From Candidatus Binataceae bacterium (GTDB lineage: Bacteria; Desulfobacterota; Binatia; Binatales; Binataceae): DNA of 50,315 nucleotides. The position numbers were made by a program, and so were the translations under genes. Positions 15,973 through 23,058 of the stretch are shown here, piece after piece (the first letter of the stretch is position 1; each line of letters begins with the position of its first letter). The stretch spans positions 1 to 50,315 of the forward strand of contig DASXMJ010000067.1 in assembly GCA_036495685.1 (NCBI GenBank), in the 5' to 3' direction. Below the pieces are notes generated by a model that worked only from the letters and a program-made list of their open reading frames with translations, was not told the DNA's origin and did not search any database.

Positions 15973-16000
15973 AACAAAAGGCCCGCCTACGAGGCGAGCC
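15973..16000 (-). terminator. Intrinsic terminator of the RND operon
   Basis: On the minus strand a 9-bp stem (GGCTCGCCT / AGGCGGGCC, one G-U pair) with a CGT loop is followed by TTTTGTTT. It overlaps the last codons and stop of the RND permease gene and looks like the end of that operon. Confidence 0.6.
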
Positions 16001-19000
16001 GTCGGCGGTCGGCCTCGCTCTCGCTGCCGTTGATCGCTGCGGGCTCTGCTCTCGGCACGTACTGCTCGCCGGTCCGCCACGCGTGGTACCGTTCGATGAA
16101 CACTTCCATGTAAGTGTAGAAGACTGGCGTGATGTAGAGGGTAAGGAACTGCGAGAAAAAGAGTCCGCCCACCACCGCTACGCCGAGCGGACGGCGCGAC
16201 TCTGCTCCCGCGCCGATTCCCAGCGCGATCGGCAGGGTACCCATCAATGCCGCCGCCGTGGTCATCATGATCGGCCGAAAGCGGATGATGGCGCCCTCGA
16301 AGATCGCTTCAGCCGGGCTCTTGCCTTCGTTACGTTGGGCGTCGAGAGCGAAATCGATCATCATGATCGCGTTCTTTTTCACCAGGCCCACCAGCATGAT
16401 GACGCCGACGAATGCGAACAGGTCCAGCTCCATTCCGAATAGCCAGAGGGTCAGCAGCGCCCCGAAGCCTGCCGAGGGGAGCCCGGACAGAATCGTGACC
16501 GGATGGATAAAGCTTTCGTAAAGGATGCCGAGCACCAGGTAGATGACCAGGATCGTCATCAGCAGCAGCATCCCGAGGTTGCCCATCGAACTTTCAAAGG
16601 CCTGTGCGGTCCCCTGGAAGCTCGAGGTGACCGTGTCTGGCAGGGTGTTCGCGGCAAGCCGCCGCACTTCGTTCAGCGCCTTGCCCAAAGAAGCGCCGGG
16701 CGCCACGTCAAACGAAATGGTCGCCGAAGGCAGCTGTCCGAAGTGATTGATTTGTAAGGGCCCCAGCGACCGCGTGAACTTGACCACGGTGTCGAGCGGT
16801 ACCAGGTCGCCACTGCTGGAGCGCACGTAGAGTAGCGAGAGCGTGGACGGATCGAGCTGATATTGCGGCTCCACCTCCATGATCACCCAGTACTCGTTGT
16901 TGGGCGCGTAGATCGTGGAAATCTGGCGCGCACCGTAAGCGGTGTAGAGCGCGTCCTCAATCGACTGTGCCGAGACTCCTAGCACGTGCGCCTTGTCACG
17001 ATCGATGTCGACCGTGACTTGCGGATTCTCGACTTGGAGGTCGCTGTTCACCCCGCGCAAGTCCTTGAGCTCATGCATTTTGCCTTCGAGTATCGGCGCG
17101 TACTTGTACAGACTGGCGGTGTCAGGGCTTTGCAGCGTCATCTGGTACATCGACCGGGTGAATTGAGCGCCCAGCTGAATTGGCGGCGGGTTCGACAAAA
17201 AGGCGCGCAGCCCCGGTACCGAGTTCACCAGTGGCCGCCACTTGGCGATCAGCTGGTCGACCGAGAGTTTGCGCTCCGCGCGCGGCTTCAAATGCAGAAA
17301 CAGAATTCCGGTATTGGTCGAACCGCCGGGGCCGCCAACTCCCACTCCGGCGAAGAAGCGCCGGATGTTGGGATTATTTTTGAGCAGGCTCACCTCCGCG
17401 AGTTGATGCTTGACCATTGAGTCGAAGGAAATGCCCTGCGCAGCCTGCGTGAAGATGATTAGTTCCTCGTTATCCTCGCTCGGCAGAAAGCCCTTCGGAA
17501 TCAGGTAAAAAAGCAGCAGAGTCACCAGCAAGATGATGCCCGAAACGACCATCGTTGCGGGCCGATGCCGCATGACCCAGGACAGGCTGCGCTGGTAAAC
17601 GTCGAGCGTCGCATCGAAGTACCTCTCGGTGACGGCGTAGAGGTGGCCGTGATGCTCACTCTTCGGCGGTTTGAGAAAGCGCGAGCACAGCATCGGGGTC
17701 AGCGTCAGCGACACGAATCCCGATACCAGGATCGCCGCGCCGATGGTGACCGCAAATTCGTGCAGCAACCGCCCCAAAATCCCGCCCATGAACAAAACCG
17801 GGATAAACACCGCCGCCAACGACACCGTCATCGACAGGATCGTGAAGCCGATCTCGCGCGCGCCATCGAGCGCCGCCGTGTAGGCGTCCTTACCCATCTC
17901 CATGTGACGCACGATGTTTTCCAGCATCACGATCGCGTCATCGACCACGAAGCCGACCGCCAGCGTGATCGCCATCAGGGAAAGATTGTCGAGCGAATAG
18001 TTCAGCGCCCACATCACCGCGAAAGTGCCGATAATCGACATGGGGAGCGCCAGGCTCGGGATAATGGTGGCCGACAGGTTGCGCAGGAACAGGAAGATGA
18101 CCATGACCACCAGCGCCACCGTCAGCAGCAGCGTGAATTGGACGTCATTTACCGATGCGCGAATCGTTTCCGAGCGGTCCCCCAGGATGTCGATGTGCAT
18201 AGCCGCCGGGACCTGGGCGTTGAACATCGGGAGCAGCTTCTTGACGTTGTCGACGACCTCAACCGTGTTGGTTCCAGGCTGGCGCTGGACCGCCAGCACC
18301 ACCGCCGGCTCTCCGCTCGACCAGTTGGCGCTTTTGTCGTTCTGGACGCTGTCGAGCACTTGTCCGAGGTCCTCGAGACGGACCGGTGCGCCGTTGCGAT
18401 ACGCTACCACCAGGGGTCGGTACGCCGCCGCGCTGGTCAGTTGACCATGGGTCTCAACCGTGAAGGCCTTCTGCTTGCCGTAGAGCGTGCCGGTGGGGAT
18501 GTTGACGTTGGCGCTCTGGACGGCTTGCGCGACTTCCTCGATACCGATTCCGCGCGCCGCCAGTTTTTTGGGGTCGAGCTGAATGCGCACCGCGTACTTC
18601 TGCGAACCGTATACCTGCACCTGCGCCACCCCGCTGACCATCGAGATGCGCTCGGCTAAAAACGTTTCCGCGTACTCGTCGACCTGTGAAATCGGCATGA
18701 TGGTCGAGCTGAGCGACAGGTAAAGAACCGGAGAGTCGGCTGGATTTACCTTGCGGAAGGTTGGCGGACTCGGCATGCCCGGAGGCAATTGGGAAAGCGT
18801 CGCGGTTATCGCCGATTGTACGTCCTGCGCGGCTGCATCGATGTTGCGTGAAAGATTGAATTGCAGGGTAATCGAGGTCGATCCCAGGATGCTGGTCGAG
18901 GTCATGGAATCGAGGCCGGCGATCGTCGTGAACTGCTTCTCCAGAGGCGTTGCTATGGAGGACGCCATGGTCTCTGGGCTGGCGCCCGGCAGCGATGCGT

Positions 19001-19142
19001 TCACCTGGATGGTCGGAAAGTCCACGTTCGGCAAATCGCTTACCGGCAGCAGCCGGTAGGCCATAAAGCCGAACATTACGATCGCCAGCGAACACAGCGT
19101 CGTCATCACCGGCCGGCGTATGAACAGCTCGGCAATACTCAC
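15987..19142 (-). CDS. RND multidrug efflux permease, MdtB/MdtC-like
   Basis: The inner-membrane pump subunit of a tripartite HAE1-type RND exporter, 1051 residues, the normal family length. It has the N-terminal helix (LFIRRPVMTTL), the VDFPTIQVNASLPGASPETM segment typical of the MdtB/MdtC branch, two large periplasmic loops, and the proton-relay pair Asp-Asp in GFVVDDAIVMLENI of helix 4. Its start overlaps the adaptor gene by four bases (ATGA), so the two are translated together. No TolC-type outer-membrane gene is in the window; the pump probably borrows one. Drug range cannot be predicted from sequence. Confidence 0.95.
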   Translation of the reverse strand: MSIAELFIRRPVMTTLCSLAIVMFGFMAYRLLPVSDLPNVDFPTIQVNASLPGASPETMASSIATPLEKQFTTIAGLDSMTSTSILGSTSITLQFNLSRNIDAAAQDVQSAITATLSQLPPGMPSPPTFRKVNPADSPVLYLSLSSTIMPISQVDEYAETFLAERISMVSGVAQVQVYGSQKYAVRIQLDPKKLAARGIGIEEVAQAVQSANVNIPTGTLYGKQKAFTVETHGQLTSAAAYRPLVVAYRNGAPVRLEDLGQVLDSVQNDKSANWSSGEPAVVLAVQRQPGTNTVEVVDNVKKLLPMFNAQVPAAMHIDILGDRSETIRASVNDVQFTLLLTVALVVMVIFLFLRNLSATIIPSLALPMSIIGTFAVMWALNYSLDNLSLMAITLAVGFVVDDAIVMLENIVRHMEMGKDAYTAALDGAREIGFTILSMTVSLAAVFIPVLFMGGILGRLLHEFAVTIGAAILVSGFVSLTLTPMLCSRFLKPPKSEHHGHLYAVTERYFDATLDVYQRSLSWVMRHRPATMVVSGIILLVTLLLFYLIPKGFLPSEDNEELIIFTQAAQGISFDSMVKHQLAEVSLLKNNPNIRRFFAGVGVGGPGGSTNTGILFLHLKPRAERKLSVDQLIAKWRPLVNSVPGLRAFLSNPPPIQLGAQFTRSMYQMTLQSPDTASLYKYAPILEGKMHELKDLRGVNSDLQVENPQVTVDIDRDKAHVLGVSAQSIEDALYTAYGARQISTIYAPNNEYWVIMEVEPQYQLDPSTLSLLYVRSSSGDLVPLDTVVKFTRSLGPLQINHFGQLPSATISFDVAPGASLGKALNEVRRLAANTLPDTVTSSFQGTAQAFESSMGNLGMLLLMTILVIYLVLGILYESFIHPVTILSGLPSAGFGALLTLWLFGMELDLFAFVGVIMLVGLVKKNAIMMIDFALDAQRNEGKSPAEAIFEGAIIRFRPIMMTTAAALMGTLPIALGIGAGAESRRPLGVAVVGGLFFSQFLTLYITPVFYTYMEVFIERYHAWRTGEQYVPRAEPAAINGSESEADRRRLAS

Positions 19143-20281
19143 GACGCCACTCCGGGGCCCTGCACCAAGCCGCGCTTGATGGTAACGCTGGCACCGGGAA
19201 TCAGGCGCAGCTGACCGTCGGTCACCACCGTCTCCCCGGACTTGAGTCCCCGTTCGACCACCGTCTCGCCATCGTAGGCCTCGCCGACCACGACTGGGCG
19301 GGGTTGCACCTTCATATTCTTGCCGACCACGAACACATACGACCCATCGAGACCGGTCTGAATCGCCTGCGAGGGAACCAGCACGGTGTTCGGCCGCTCA
19401 TCGAGGATGAGCGTGGCGTCGACGAATTGCCCGGGCCACAGCTTGTTGTCGAGGTTGGAAAAAATCCCCTTGAGTTCGATCGTGCCGGTCTTGGCGTCCA
19501 CGGTGTTGTCCACGAAGCTCAAGTTCCCGCGTTCGATGACGCCTTGTTGTCCGGGAATGGCGGTGTCGACGGTCAACGTCCGGTCCGCCATGTAGCGGCG
19601 GACTTCGGGCAGGCGCTGCTCTGGAATCGAAAAATCAACGTATACCGGTTTGATCTGATTAATCACGACCATCGCGGTGTCGGCGTTCGCTTTTACCAGA
19701 TTTCCCGGATGAACCAGCAGATTGCCGGTGCGCCCATCGATTGGCGCGCTGATCTTCGTGTATGCGAGGTTGAGTTGCGCCGTTTGTACCGCCGCATTGT
19801 CGGCGTCGATGGTCGCGCGATACGCCTCGGCCGCCGCGTGGGCCTGGTCGTACTGCTGCGGCGAGCCGACGCTTTCCTTCAGGAGAAGGCTGTAGCGCCG
19901 CTCATCGGCCGCGGCCTGCGCGAGTTGCGCCTGATCTTTTGCCAGGGCGGCTTTGGCTTGCAGCAGCGCTGCCTCGAACGGCCGCGGATCGATGGTAAAC
20001 AGCAACTCGCCCTTTTTTACGTCCTGCCCTTCCTTGAAGTGGACCTCGGTGACCTCGCCGTTGATTTGGGCTTTGATCTCGACGGTCGAGTAGGCTTCGA
20101 CCCGTCCGATCGCGTGAATGTGGCTCGCCACGGTTTTCTGTTCCGCGGTGGCGACCAGCACCGGAACGGCCTCACGCGTGCCAAATGGCTGGTCCCCGGA
20201 CCCACGCGAACACGCGGCTGCGGAAAAAGTCGCGAGCAACCACAATGCGATTACCGCGCCTGCTGACAATCGCCGCTTCAA
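19139..20281 (-). CDS. RND efflux periplasmic adaptor, MdtA-like
   Basis: The membrane-fusion protein that links the RND permease to an outer-membrane channel, 380 residues. The N-terminal hydrophobic segment ends in SAAAC, consistent with lipoprotein processing. Then come the lipoyl half-motifs (EIKAQINGEV and KISAPIDGRTG), a coiled-coil hairpin (about residues 105-170) and the beta-barrel and membrane-proximal domains. The start codon is TTG at 20281, preceded 11 bases upstream by GGAAGG. This ribosome binding site sits in one arm of an inverted repeat that could hide it (see the leader element at 20295-20376). Confidence 0.93.
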   Translation of the reverse strand: MKRRLSAGAVIALWLLATFSAAACSRGSGDQPFGTREAVPVLVATAEQKTVASHIHAIGRVEAYSTVEIKAQINGEVTEVHFKEGQDVKKGELLFTIDPRPFEAALLQAKAALAKDQAQLAQAAADERRYSLLLKESVGSPQQYDQAHAAAEAYRATIDADNAAVQTAQLNLAYTKISAPIDGRTGNLLVHPGNLVKANADTAMVVINQIKPVYVDFSIPEQRLPEVRRYMADRTLTVDTAIPGQQGVIERGNLSFVDNTVDAKTGTIELKGIFSNLDNKLWPGQFVDATLILDERPNTVLVPSQAIQTGLDGSYVFVVGKNMKVQPRPVVVGEAYDGETVVERGLKSGETVVTDGQLRLIPGASVTIKRGLVQGPGVAS

Positions 20282-20294
20282 TCGTGTCGCGCCC

Positions 20295-20376
20295 TTCCAG
20301 TGACCGACCCCACCCGAAACTTATCGCTCCGGAGTTGCCCAAGACATAACCTCGAGGTCACTGGAAAAGTTATGTC
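20295..20376 (-). promoter_or_regulatory. Putative structured leader of the RND operon
   Basis: An 11-bp perfect inverted repeat (TTCCAGTGACC at 20356-20366 and GGTCACTGGAA at 20295-20305 on the minus strand) encloses 50 bases. Its distal arm touches the GGAAGG ribosome binding site of the adaptor gene. A second 8-bp repeat (GACATAAC at 20369-20376, GTTATGTC at 20343-20350) has the first arm inside its loop, so the two hairpins may be alternatives. If transcribed, this could control translation of the pump. It could instead be DNA operator sites. No known riboswitch class is recognised. Confidence 0.4.
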
Positions 20377-20406
20377 CTCGTATAAGGGTTCTCCGAACAC
20401 CCGTTG

Positions 20407-20424
20407 CCTGACCGAACGTTCAGG
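20407..20424. promoter_or_regulatory. Imperfect 18-bp palindrome, possible operator
   Basis: The sequence CCTGACCGAACGTTCAGG matches its reverse complement at 14 of 18 positions. It lies about 130 bases upstream of the RND adaptor start. Its size and symmetry would suit a TetR-type repressor, but no regulator gene is adjacent, so this is only a candidate. Confidence 0.2.
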
Positions 20425-20490
20425 ACAGCTAATCTTATCAGGCCCGCAAGACCCGAGGAAAAGGCCCCTGCTTATCTCTGTGCTGGCCTC

Positions 20491-20509
20491 CGCTGCGAGA
20501 GCCGCAGCG
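20491..20509 (-). terminator. Hairpin downstream of the selenoprotein operon
   Basis: A 7-bp perfect stem (CGCTGCG / CGCAGCG) with a 5-base loop lies about 40 bases past the stop of the carboxymuconolactone-decarboxylase gene. A second, weaker GC stem lies between them. There is no T-run, so termination here is uncertain. Confidence 0.3.
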
Positions 20510-20547
20510 TAGCCCGCGCAGAGCGGGGAGGGGGCGGGCGCGTGCGA

Positions 20548-21138
20548 TTAGTTTGAGGCTGCGTGTTGTGCGGCGGCCGCTTTCAACGCCGGATGGTTCG
20601 CGGGCAACTGGCAGAGCCCATCGGAAGGTACTTGCAGCGCCCGATTGAAACGCGCACGAAAATTCTCGAGCGCGATAGTTGCGGTCAACTCGACGATCGC
20701 GGCTTCGCCGAAATAGCGGCGCAACTCTTCGAACACCTGATCGGGCACTTCAACCGGGCCGCGGCAGATCTCCTCCGTGTAACGTAACGCGGCTTTCTCC
20801 GCCGGAGAGAAGAGCTCGCTCGACTGGTAGTCAGCAACCGCCGCCAGTTTCTCGAAGCTCAATCCTGCCTCCCTGCCACCGGCAGAGTTGATATCCATTC
20901 AGAACGGACATCCGATGAGCTGGGCGGCGCGCAGGCACACGATTCGTTTGAGCGGGTTCGGAATGCCCTTGGAAAATTCGAGGCAGAGATTGGCGACCAG
21001 GAAGCCAAACGCCACCGGGGGCCGATGCGCCAGCACCGTATATGGCGTTAGCACCTTGCCGAATTGCCGCTTCATCGCGGCGTAGATCCATCGAATCGTC
21101 CAGTGCGCTTCGCGCTTTTCAAGGCCTCTGATCCTCAT
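20548..21138 (-). CDS. AhpD/CMD-like selenoprotein (in-frame TGA = Sec)
   Basis: Read as one 196-residue protein, this is an AhpD/carboxymuconolactone-decarboxylase-fold peroxidase-like protein. The first 79 codons end in LKRIVCLRAAQLIGCPF; then comes TGA (20899-20901), and the same frame continues MDINSAGGREAGLSFEK to a stop at 20548. Family members have a redox CxxC here, so the TGA replaces the second cysteine, giving Cys77-Pro-Phe-Sec80. A hairpin begins 11 bases after the TGA with a GGU apical loop, as expected for a bacterial SECIS. Family enzymes reduce peroxides or disulfides through this pair. It is the last gene of the ECF-sigma operon. A true nonsense mutation is the alternative, but the exact Cys position, the hairpin and the intact downstream half argue against it. 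Confidence 0.85.
20871..20887 (-). promoter_or_regulatory. Putative bacterial SECIS hairpin
   Basis: Counting from the base after the UGA, positions 12-18 (CUCUGCC) pair with 22-28 (GGCAGGG), leaving a GGU loop at 19-21: seven pairs including one G-U. The G and U at positions 20 and 21 match the loop bases known to be read by SelB in the E. coli fdhF element. The loop-to-UGA distance of 18 bases is within the known bacterial range. The element lies inside the coding sequence, as is usual in bacteria. Confidence 0.75.
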
Positions 21139-21150
21139 CGCGCAGACCTC

Positions 21151-21585
21151 CTACGCAGCGTGCACCGCGGCGCGCGCCGATTCCTGCGCCGGGCGCATCA
21201 GCACGAATACGAGGAGCCACAGCACGATCGTGGGAAGGTAGATTCCCACTATCTCGGTCGTAATGTGCTGAGATGACAGGAGACCTGCCGCGTGCGAGTA
21301 GATGTGCAGAATCGAGTGGATGGTGCTGGCCACGGCCGCGATCAGCACCGCGACTGCATGACGCTGCGGATGAAGCGCCGCCAGCACCAGCCCTGCCGCT
21401 ATTCCCAGGTTGAAGGTCCCGCTGTCGGCGACCAGGTGCGCGTTGAAGGGCCCCGTTTCCGGAACTCCCGGAACGAGTCGGAAGAACCAGGTCGAGGGCA
21501 AGAAAAACATCTCGATCCCGTTGGCCAGGTAGAATGCTGCGAATAGCCAAAGCAGGATGGATATCCAGCGTGGGGTCTTGTTCAT
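21151..21585 (-). CDS. Four-helix membrane protein in ECF operon
   Basis: A 144-residue integral membrane protein with about four hydrophobic helices (near residues 7-25, 50-66, 74-95 and 110-128). It has no domain I can name with confidence, though layout and size recall small DoxX-like or DUF4345-like membrane proteins. Polar residues inside helices, such as His in STIHSILHIYSHAAG, may bind a metal or a quinone; this is speculative. Start at ATG 21585 with a GGAGGG ribosome binding site; its ATG overlaps the stop of the preceding small gene by four bases (ATGA). It lies 12 bases before the selenoprotein gene, so they are co-transcribed. Confidence 0.8.
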   Translation of the reverse strand: MNKTPRWISILLWLFAAFYLANGIEMFFLPSTWFFRLVPGVPETGPFNAHLVADSGTFNLGIAAGLVLAALHPQRHAVAVLIAAVASTIHSILHIYSHAAGLLSSQHITTEIVGIYLPTIVLWLLVFVLMRPAQESARAAVHAA

Positions 21586-21827
21586 CGTGACCCTCCGTTG
21601 CGCGCCGCCGGCACGATGGTGGTGGGCCGTACGTGCGCGGGGACTATTATCGCCAAGGCCGTCGCCAAGCCGACCACCAGGCCGACCGCTGCTATCCGCA
21701 GCGCGCTGGCGACGCCCGCAATCCACAGGGCGAGCCCCAGCGGAATTGCGATTACCGCAACCTCGCTCAAGACCACGCCGATGCCGATAACGAAGCTGAG
21801 GGCGCGCATTTTGAAAGGCCAGGACAT
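21582..21827 (-). CDS. Small two-helix membrane protein
   Basis: An 81-residue protein with two strongly hydrophobic helices (about residues 7-35 and 40-62) and a short basic tail. No known family is recognised. It begins at ATG 21827, 13 bases after the ferredoxin stop, and its stop overlaps the next gene's ATG. The open frame extends upstream into the ferredoxin gene, but that part is Arg/Ser-rich and unlikely to be translated. Its position between a ferredoxin and a second membrane protein suggests a membrane redox module, perhaps anchoring or regulating the sigma factor; neither role is shown by sequence. Confidence 0.7.
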   Translation of the reverse strand: MSWPFKMRALSFVIGIGVVLSEVAVIAIPLGLALWIAGVASALRIAAVGLVVGLATALAIIVPAHVRPTTIVPAARNGGSR

Positions 21828-21840
21828 GGGCGTCTTCTTT

Positions 21841-22281
21841 TTACTCGCTGAGCTCCCCGCAGAGCGGGAACACCGATTCGACCGCAACCGGTCCTGCAAC
21901 CCGCGCCTGGCAGGCAAGCCGCGTCCGTGAACTGATGGAGAGATGATAGCGCAGCGACAGTCGCTCCAGGGGACTCATGGGAGCCAGATTTTCGGCGCCT
22001 GCGGTTACCCTGACACGACAGGTCGCGCACAACGTTCGTGCCCCGCACAGATGCATCAGCCGGGTGCGGCTTTTCAATGCCGCCCCTAGCAGCGTGCCTC
22101 CGCGTCGTGCGACGATCTTCTTGCCATCGAATTCGATCGGCACCAGGTCCGGGCGCGAAGCCACATCACGCAATCGCGCCGCGAAGCGCTCGCGCAATCC
22201 GGCACTGGGTGCTTGCGCCATTACGTCCGCGCTGCTGCGTAGCCGGACGGCGATTGCCATTTCATCTGCTGGCCGGTTCAT
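21841..22281 (-). CDS. Adrenodoxin-type [2Fe-2S] ferredoxin with N-terminal extension
   Basis: A 146-residue protein with a C-terminal [2Fe-2S] ferredoxin domain (about residues 46-146). The cysteine pattern is Cys79-x5-Cys85-x2-Cys88-x35-Cys124, the adrenodoxin/ISC-type spacing rather than the plant-type x4. Some 45 residues precede the domain and may mediate a partner contact. It probably passes single electrons to a partner encoded in the same operon, possibly a membrane protein or the downstream CMD selenoprotein. It overlaps the sigma-factor stop by four bases (ATGA), showing tight coupling. Confidence 0.88.
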   Translation of the reverse strand: MNRPADEMAIAVRLRSSADVMAQAPSAGLRERFAARLRDVASRPDLVPIEFDGKKIVARRGGTLLGAALKSRTRLMHLCGARTLCATCRVRVTAGAENLAPMSPLERLSLRYHLSISSRTRLACQARVAGPVAVESVFPLCGELSE

Positions 22282-22910
22282 GGTCGTTCTTGCAATTTCC
22301 TTCTAAGCGCGTCCCGTGCGCGCTTGAGTTTCGACTCGACCGCGTGTTCGGTTGCCGCCACGACAGTCGCGATTTCGGCGGTAGTCGCTTCTTCCACGTA
22401 TTTGAGGTGCAGTAACTCGCGATACTGCGGCTTCAGCGCGGCCAGCGCACGGTACAAAGTTGCGTCGCGCGAAAACGGATCGTCTGCGGCGGAACCCGCG
22501 GGCTCGAGCGTCGAAACAATTCGCGCGCGGCGCGCGCTGGTGCGCAGGAACGACATGGTCTTCCGATGCGCGATCGCGCAAGCGAAGGTGAACAGCGCCG
22601 CGTCGCCGCGAAAGAAAGGCAGAGCTTCGGCCAGGGCGAGAAAGGTTTCCTGCAGCAGATCGTCGGCATCCGGGGGCGAGGAAAACCCGCCCAGCGCTCG
22701 CGAGATGAAGCGATGGATTCGTGGCGCGTAGCGGTCGTAGAATTCGCCCGCCGCGTCGCGATCACCGCGGCGCAGACGCGCCAGTAAGAGCGTTTCGTCG
22801 ACCGGCGATGGCCGGGATTCATCCACAGCCAGCCACGCACATGCCGGCGCATTCGCCATTAGATCGACGTTGCTGCCCTCCCGTCGCGATTCTCGATCTT
22901 TAGTCGCCAT
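22278..22910 (-). CDS. ECF-type RNA polymerase sigma factor
   Basis: A 210-residue group 4 sigma factor. Region 2 spans about residues 40-120, with the core-binding DADDLLQETFLAL motif; region 4 is the C-terminal helix-turn-helix (LKPQYRELLHLKYVEEATTAEIA). There is no SnoaL-type C-terminal extension, so it is not an ECF41 protein, although ECF41 genes are also linked to CMD proteins. No recognisable anti-sigma factor is present; one of the small membrane proteins downstream could fill that role. The ATG at 22910 is used; ATG at 22859 with GGGAGGG upstream is a good alternative. It heads an operon of five overlapping or closely spaced genes and probably autoregulates it. Confidence 0.9.
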   Translation of the reverse strand: MATKDRESRREGSNVDLMANAPACAWLAVDESRPSPVDETLLLARLRRGDRDAAGEFYDRYAPRIHRFISRALGGFSSPPDADDLLQETFLALAEALPFFRGDAALFTFACAIAHRKTMSFLRTSARRARIVSTLEPAGSAADDPFSRDATLYRALAALKPQYRELLHLKYVEEATTAEIATVVAATEHAVESKLKRARDALRRKLQERP

Positions 22911-23058
22911 GAGGGTCCGAGATCCGTCGCCTGGCCGATAAAGAGCCGGATAAAACCCCAAAACACCCTAAAGACAGCCGATTCTAGCCTGGGGGTCCAT
23001 TTGGCGCCCGGGCCGGCTGGCTGATTCTGATGCAGGTCCCGCTCGCCAGAAAAGCGAA

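Follow-up and report, generated by a model that had tools for sequence, protein, structure and literature searches.

The window, a stretch of 50,315 nucleotides in contig C67 of genome G000, carries on its minus strand two adjacent open reading frames, one of 79 codons that ends in TGA (20899-21138) and one of 116 codons (20548-20898). Both lie in one frame, and the TGA is the sole stop inside 20548-21138 (Table 1). When it is read as selenocysteine (Sec, U), the two frames join into a 196-residue product in which residues 77-80 are Cys-Pro-Phe-Sec. The original prediction had described this arrangement: an AhpD-like protein assembled from frames of these lengths through a single TGA at the second cysteine of a CxxC motif. 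The ORFs are as it gave them, frame and alignment both place U at residue 80, and the joined frame scores 39.5 bits against the Pfam CMD family (cut-off 23) with a match that spans the TGA. This score and the modeled fold described below place the protein in the CMD/AhpD-like superfamily. Two long frames joined over a TGA are by themselves weak evidence at 61% GC, and the window holds 15 such split frames of at least 80 and at least 110 codons around one TGA. Homology is what lifts this one beyond chance, namely the CMD match across the TGA, the conservation of the TGA, and a dN that is well under dS both before and after it.

Table 1. Features of the locus and further TGA-containing AhpD-like genes of the same genome. 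Positions are those of the window unless a contig is given.
Feature	Position	Strand	Basis
Predicted selenoprotein CDS, 196 aa plus stop, AhpD/CMD fold, CPFU active site	20548..21138	-	ORFs, profile matches, alignment, structural model
In-frame TGA, codon 80, predicted to be read as selenocysteine	20899..20901	-	same codon is TGA in ~40 related loci; TGC/TGT in Cys forms
Bacterial SECIS-like hairpin, 7 bp, GGU tri-loop (20878-20880)	20871..20887	-	fold, covariation, codon bias
Shine-Dalgarno-like GGAGGT, 7 nt 5' of the start ATG	21146..21151	-	seen directly in the sequence
DUF4345-like small membrane protein, directly upstream, possible partner	21151..21585	-	sub-threshold Pfam match and kept adjacency
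Small protein without family match, same syntenic block, start uncertain	21582..21917	-	ORF, profile scan, synteny
2Fe-2S ferredoxin-like protein, same block	21841..22281	-	profile scan, synteny
ECF-type sigma factor, head of the block	22278..22961	-	profile scan, synteny
RND efflux membrane-fusion protein (MFP), downstream, syntenic in nearest relatives	19139..20281	-	profile scan, synteny
RND (AcrB-type) pump, downstream of the MFP gene, synteny kept in nearest relatives	15987..19142	-	profile scan, synteny
TGA-containing AhpD-like gene (L054), without the window's neighbor genes	G000:C94:44820-45383		
TGA-containing AhpD-like gene (L055), without the window's neighbor genes	G000:C124:1686-2177		

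Across the class, the window protein found matches in 62 of 148 genomes, and the Sec form was individually confirmed in 32 of these 62. TGA occupies exactly the codon-80 position in about 40 related loci of these 32 genomes, where it falls within CPFU, CVFU, CPYU or similar motifs, and in others outside the class. Relatives without TGA there encode Cys by TGC or TGT, never Trp. The nearest named relative, from Centralia_MAG_89, is a syntenic orthologue from another species that is 72% identical; compared with it, the window gene has a dN of 0.197 and a dS of 0.60 upstream of the TGA and a dN of 0.159 and a dS of 1.44 downstream. The downstream half is thus under the same protein-level selection, which bears out the earlier impression that it retains coding character.

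Read naively, the TGA could be a true lesion: the gene would be an AhpD-like Cys gene that has decayed into a pseudogene, or one that was sequenced or assembled wrongly. A gene caller would indeed see two separate ORFs here, and errors are to be expected in a draft assembly of 245 contigs. However, 32 genomes of the class share the TGA at this very codon, nearly all without any other lesion in the gene, dN remains well below dS on either side, and the hairpin 3' of the TGA has undergone compensatory changes. Because the TGA is conserved and the hairpin covaries, this explanation is refuted, and we regard it as extremely improbable.

Some relatives depart from the common motif. L030 (G035:C189:5388-5879) reads SPYU, with Ser in place of the first Cys, so that Sec would stand alone (SxxU); its genome has selA, and the hairpin is partly retained. 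Two more distant AhpD-like genes of the phylum, L052 (G199) and L053 (G309), carry CRHU and CEYULDAH, respectively, and the latter keeps the histidine of the AhpD proton relay (see below), which the window protein is missing. An apparent UAG-decoded variant, L029 (G092), was set aside after its TAG was found at the C-terminal end and its active site proved to be Cys.

Decoding of UGA as selenocysteine needs selA, selB, selC (tRNA-Sec) and selD, and the original prediction had named their presence elsewhere in the genome, together with Cys at position 80 of homologues, as the means of checking it; a genome without the machinery, or homologues in decay, would have spoken against it. All four genes are present in G000. 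The tRNA-Sec scores 70 bits and is called tRNA-SeC(tca) by ARAGORN, SelA matches at 584.6 bits, and selB adjoins selD. The SelD match (385.6 bits) has one in-frame TGA of its own, which falls in the active-site stretch CKAAGUAGK (L111 3488-4414, G000:C29:8622-9548), so that selD would be a second, independent selenoprotein gene of this genome. The Cys homologues, too, were found by alignment, and nearly all TGA-bearing relatives are free of lesions. Two further AhpD-like genes of G000, L054 and L055, have an in-frame TGA at the same motif, reading CPFU and CEFU.

The frame would open equally if UGA were read genome-wide as another amino acid, for example Trp. UGA, however, serves as the stop codon of at least five further genes in the window (those for the sigma factor, the small protein, the MFP, an amidohydrolase and a hydrolase), and since UGA stops thus end neighboring genes, a changed code is refuted. 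Homologues that have Cys and never Trp at the position, together with SelA, SelB, SelD and tRNA-Sec, also speak against it, and we consider it vanishingly improbable.

The distribution of the two forms provides a natural control. Of the 32 genomes of the class with the Sec form, 29 have selA, and the other 3 have a tRNA-Sec that scores 74 bits or more. The latter three, G427, G450 and G520, have tRNA-Sec matches of 74-81 bits and no selA match in the assembly, which probably reflects assembly gaps. Conversely, in all seven genomes lacking both selA and a tRNA-Sec match above 52 bits (G092, G471, G454, G523, G524, G525 and G527), the position is Cys (TGC/TGT), and in these seven Cys relatives the SECIS hairpin is absent. 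The threshold follows from matches of 46-52 bits being taken as background, as they are also seen in genomes with a true tRNA-Sec of 69-74 bits; we infer that they are tRNA-Ser. Three genomes in which selA matches in full or in part (G475, G467 and G446) carry the Cys form as well. The association of form with pathway has a Fisher p of 4e-6, and its Cys side comprises about four independent lineages. G523, G524 and G527, which have no selA, were considered as Sec counterexamples and rejected; their single TGA is the natural end of the gene, and their active site is Cys.

Bacterial SECIS elements are hairpins placed right after the UGA, with a small apical loop that contains G (PMC1088965). The window gene has such a hairpin, CUCUGCC-GGU-GGCAGGG, whose 7-bp stem (-10.2 kcal/mol) starts 11 nt 3' of the TGA and is closed by a G-containing GGU loop. 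Among 34 distinct sequences, 84.5% of stem cells hold standard pairs, versus a shuffled mean of 73.3, and 24 cells have changed on both sides, versus 8.2. The covariation score of 0.297 (0.105 when shuffled) was reached in 0 of 500 shuffles, and every hairpin measure drops when the pairing partner is slid. The stems of relatives differ in sequence (GCUGCC/GGCAGC, GCCGCC/GGCGGC, GCAUCC/GGGAUGC, GCUAGC/GCUAGC) and leave the loop position unchanged. Codon choice is constrained as well: AGA or AGG encodes Arg at +9 in 20 of 21 genes, whereas they make up 99 of 930 in the rest of these genes (p 4e-18), and for Ser at +5, TCT is used in 17 of 17, compared with 37 of 498 (p 2e-18); these p values make the evidence look stronger than it is, as the genes are related and not independent, but the effect is near total. 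The outermost pair of the stem is present in 22 of the 34 sequences. When the 54 nt 3' of the TGA are folded, a different structure has the lowest energy for the window sequence, and for that reason we rely on covariation and codon bias over energy alone. Compared with shuffled sequences, this stretch does not stand out in energy (z -1.1 to -2.1), and an Rfam scan of the gene region gave only matches far under the family cut-offs.

In the window, an ATG (20896-20898) directly follows the TGA, which raises the possibility that UGA terminates translation and that a restart yields a split protein of 79 and 116 residues. Direct inspection found no Shine-Dalgarno-like sequence before this internal ATG. 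In many relatives, moreover, the codon after the TGA is ATC, CTC, ATT, CAG, ACG or AAG, and those with CAG, ACG or AAG have no start codon there. A restart would also leave the SECIS hairpin and the correlation of Sec or Cys with the pathway without explanation, and we judge it very improbable. The gene instead most likely encodes one full-length selenoprotein, to which we give a probability of roughly 94%: SelB and tRNA-Sec would insert selenocysteine at UGA codon 80 under the direction of the downstream hairpin. The evidence for this reading is comparative; the pathway, the covarying hairpin, the conserved TGA, the Cys homologues and the selection on both halves all favor the Sec at CxxU that had originally been proposed.

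An AlphaFold2 model built from the family alignment (pLDDT 93.3) matches AhpD-like structures over the whole chain, with Z scores of 22.4 for 6k40 and 21.9 for both 2oyo and 2prr, and sequence-profile matches agree with this assignment. The debrominase Bmp8 (6ohi) scores 20.9 over 182 residues at 23% identity. The AhpD-like protein PA0269 (2o4d, 2ijc; Z 19) and Mycobacterium tuberculosis AhpD (1gu9, 1knc; Z about 11) share the fold and the position of the CxxC/CxxU motif. Model and alignment show a predicted redox pair, Cys77/Sec80, where the active-site helix begins, with Sec80 in the place of AhpD's second catalytic Cys.

The peroxidase activity of AhpD involves a proton relay of five residues, Glu, Cys, His/Tyr, Cys and His, which in PA0269 are Glu36, Cys48, Tyr50, Cys51 and His55 (PMC3141380). 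An ungapped alignment to PA0269 gives Arg65, Cys77, Phe79, Sec80 and Asn84 as their equivalents here, so that Glu, Tyr/His and His are replaced. Because these three relay residues are replaced, an AhpD-type peroxidase role is doubtful, and of the originally proposed peroxidase or disulfide reductase activity, the peroxidase half is in doubt in the AhpD sense, while thiol-disulfide type chemistry is plausible. Across the family, most proteins have Asn, Gly or His at position 84, and none of the 35 aligned proteins departs from Asp at position 82. The idea that Sec compensates for the lost relay was unsupported, with Cys relatives lacking the relay too; since they also lack the His, selenium does not account for its loss.

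Bmp8 is among the closest solved full-length relatives (E 4.6e-16, residues 17-169), its fold matches over the full length (6ohi, 6ohj), and its CxxC aligns with CPFU, its second Cys corresponding to Sec80. In work on Bmp8, this CMD-fold debrominase was reportedly proposed to abstract halogen, and a parallel was drawn with the Sec-containing deiodinases. The same selenoprotein might then be a reductive dehalogenase in which Sec80 abstracts halogen from an organohalide, in the manner proposed for Bmp8 and the thyroid deiodinases; if so, it would be a bacterial counterpart, by mechanism though not by fold, of these selenium-dependent deiodinases. The residues after the motif, however, are not shared, being CKSHFSH in Bmp8 and UMDINSA in the window protein. 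No organohalide gene was recognized among the ten neighboring genes scanned, and AhpD-like entries without any link to dehalogenation score equally well. We consider a dehalogenase a very unlikely alternative.

A thiol/selenol oxidoreductase is the role that we somewhat favor. In this scheme, Sec80 would act as the nucleophile that attacks an oxidized substrate, with a disulfide or peroxide-type bond; the resulting selenenyl adduct would be resolved by Cys77, and a thiol or dithiol donor of the cell would then reduce the Cys-Sec bond again. The enzyme may serve, or work alongside, the DUF4345-like membrane protein whose gene lies directly upstream. While the Pfam match of that protein falls below the cut-off (19.9 vs 26.5 bits), its adjacency is retained in other genera and in two other families of the class (L107, L108; ~30% identity), and this retention points, tentatively, to a membrane partner of the selenoprotein.

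The remaining neighbors have a narrower distribution, the sigma factor, ferredoxin and RND pump being conserved at the locus only in the nearest relatives. Centralia_MAG_89 has the same gene order: amidohydrolase, ECF sigma factor, ferredoxin, small protein, DUF4345-like protein, selenoprotein and RND pump. The minus-strand block 15987-22961 keeps its order in G409, G425 and G397, with the RND pump best conserved (~80-93% identity), and this suggests a co-regulated operon.

AhpD-like and CMD-like selenoproteins with CxxU have been on record since a 2005 study of the Sargasso Sea (PMC1088965), and later reviews include them (PMC9312934, PMC13188914). Compared by description only, these marine metagenomic proteins, the AhpD-like (COG2128/YciW) and the CMD-like (PF02627), share with the window protein the domain family, the CxxU motif and a SECIS after the UGA (PMC1088965). 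TIGR01926 (peroxidase-related enzyme), the model that a 2026 review gives for the 2005 AhpD-like selenoprotein, matches the window protein at 29 bits, below its cut-off of 81.8. The best family match is NCBIfam NF053654 (GroundWater_YciW, "YciW-related (seleno)protein"), over residues 2-176 with an E value of 2e-38. Its name shows that Sec members are known, and all 35 aligned relatives match it. The window protein scores 131.9 bits against a cut-off of 310, and the best match of the 35 relatives (E 2.4e-68) also falls, by estimate, under the cut-off. On these sequence scores, the window protein looks like a member of a sister subfamily to NF053654. The kind of protein is thus known, and the class-wide subfamily appears uncurated.

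Standard annotation would split or drop this gene and its relatives across the whole class. Within the class, natural replacements occur in two states: Sec forms accompanied by hairpin and pathway, and Cys forms that have neither. They make a clean set in which to ask when Sec is kept or lost, and what it contributes to an AhpD-type site that has no relay.
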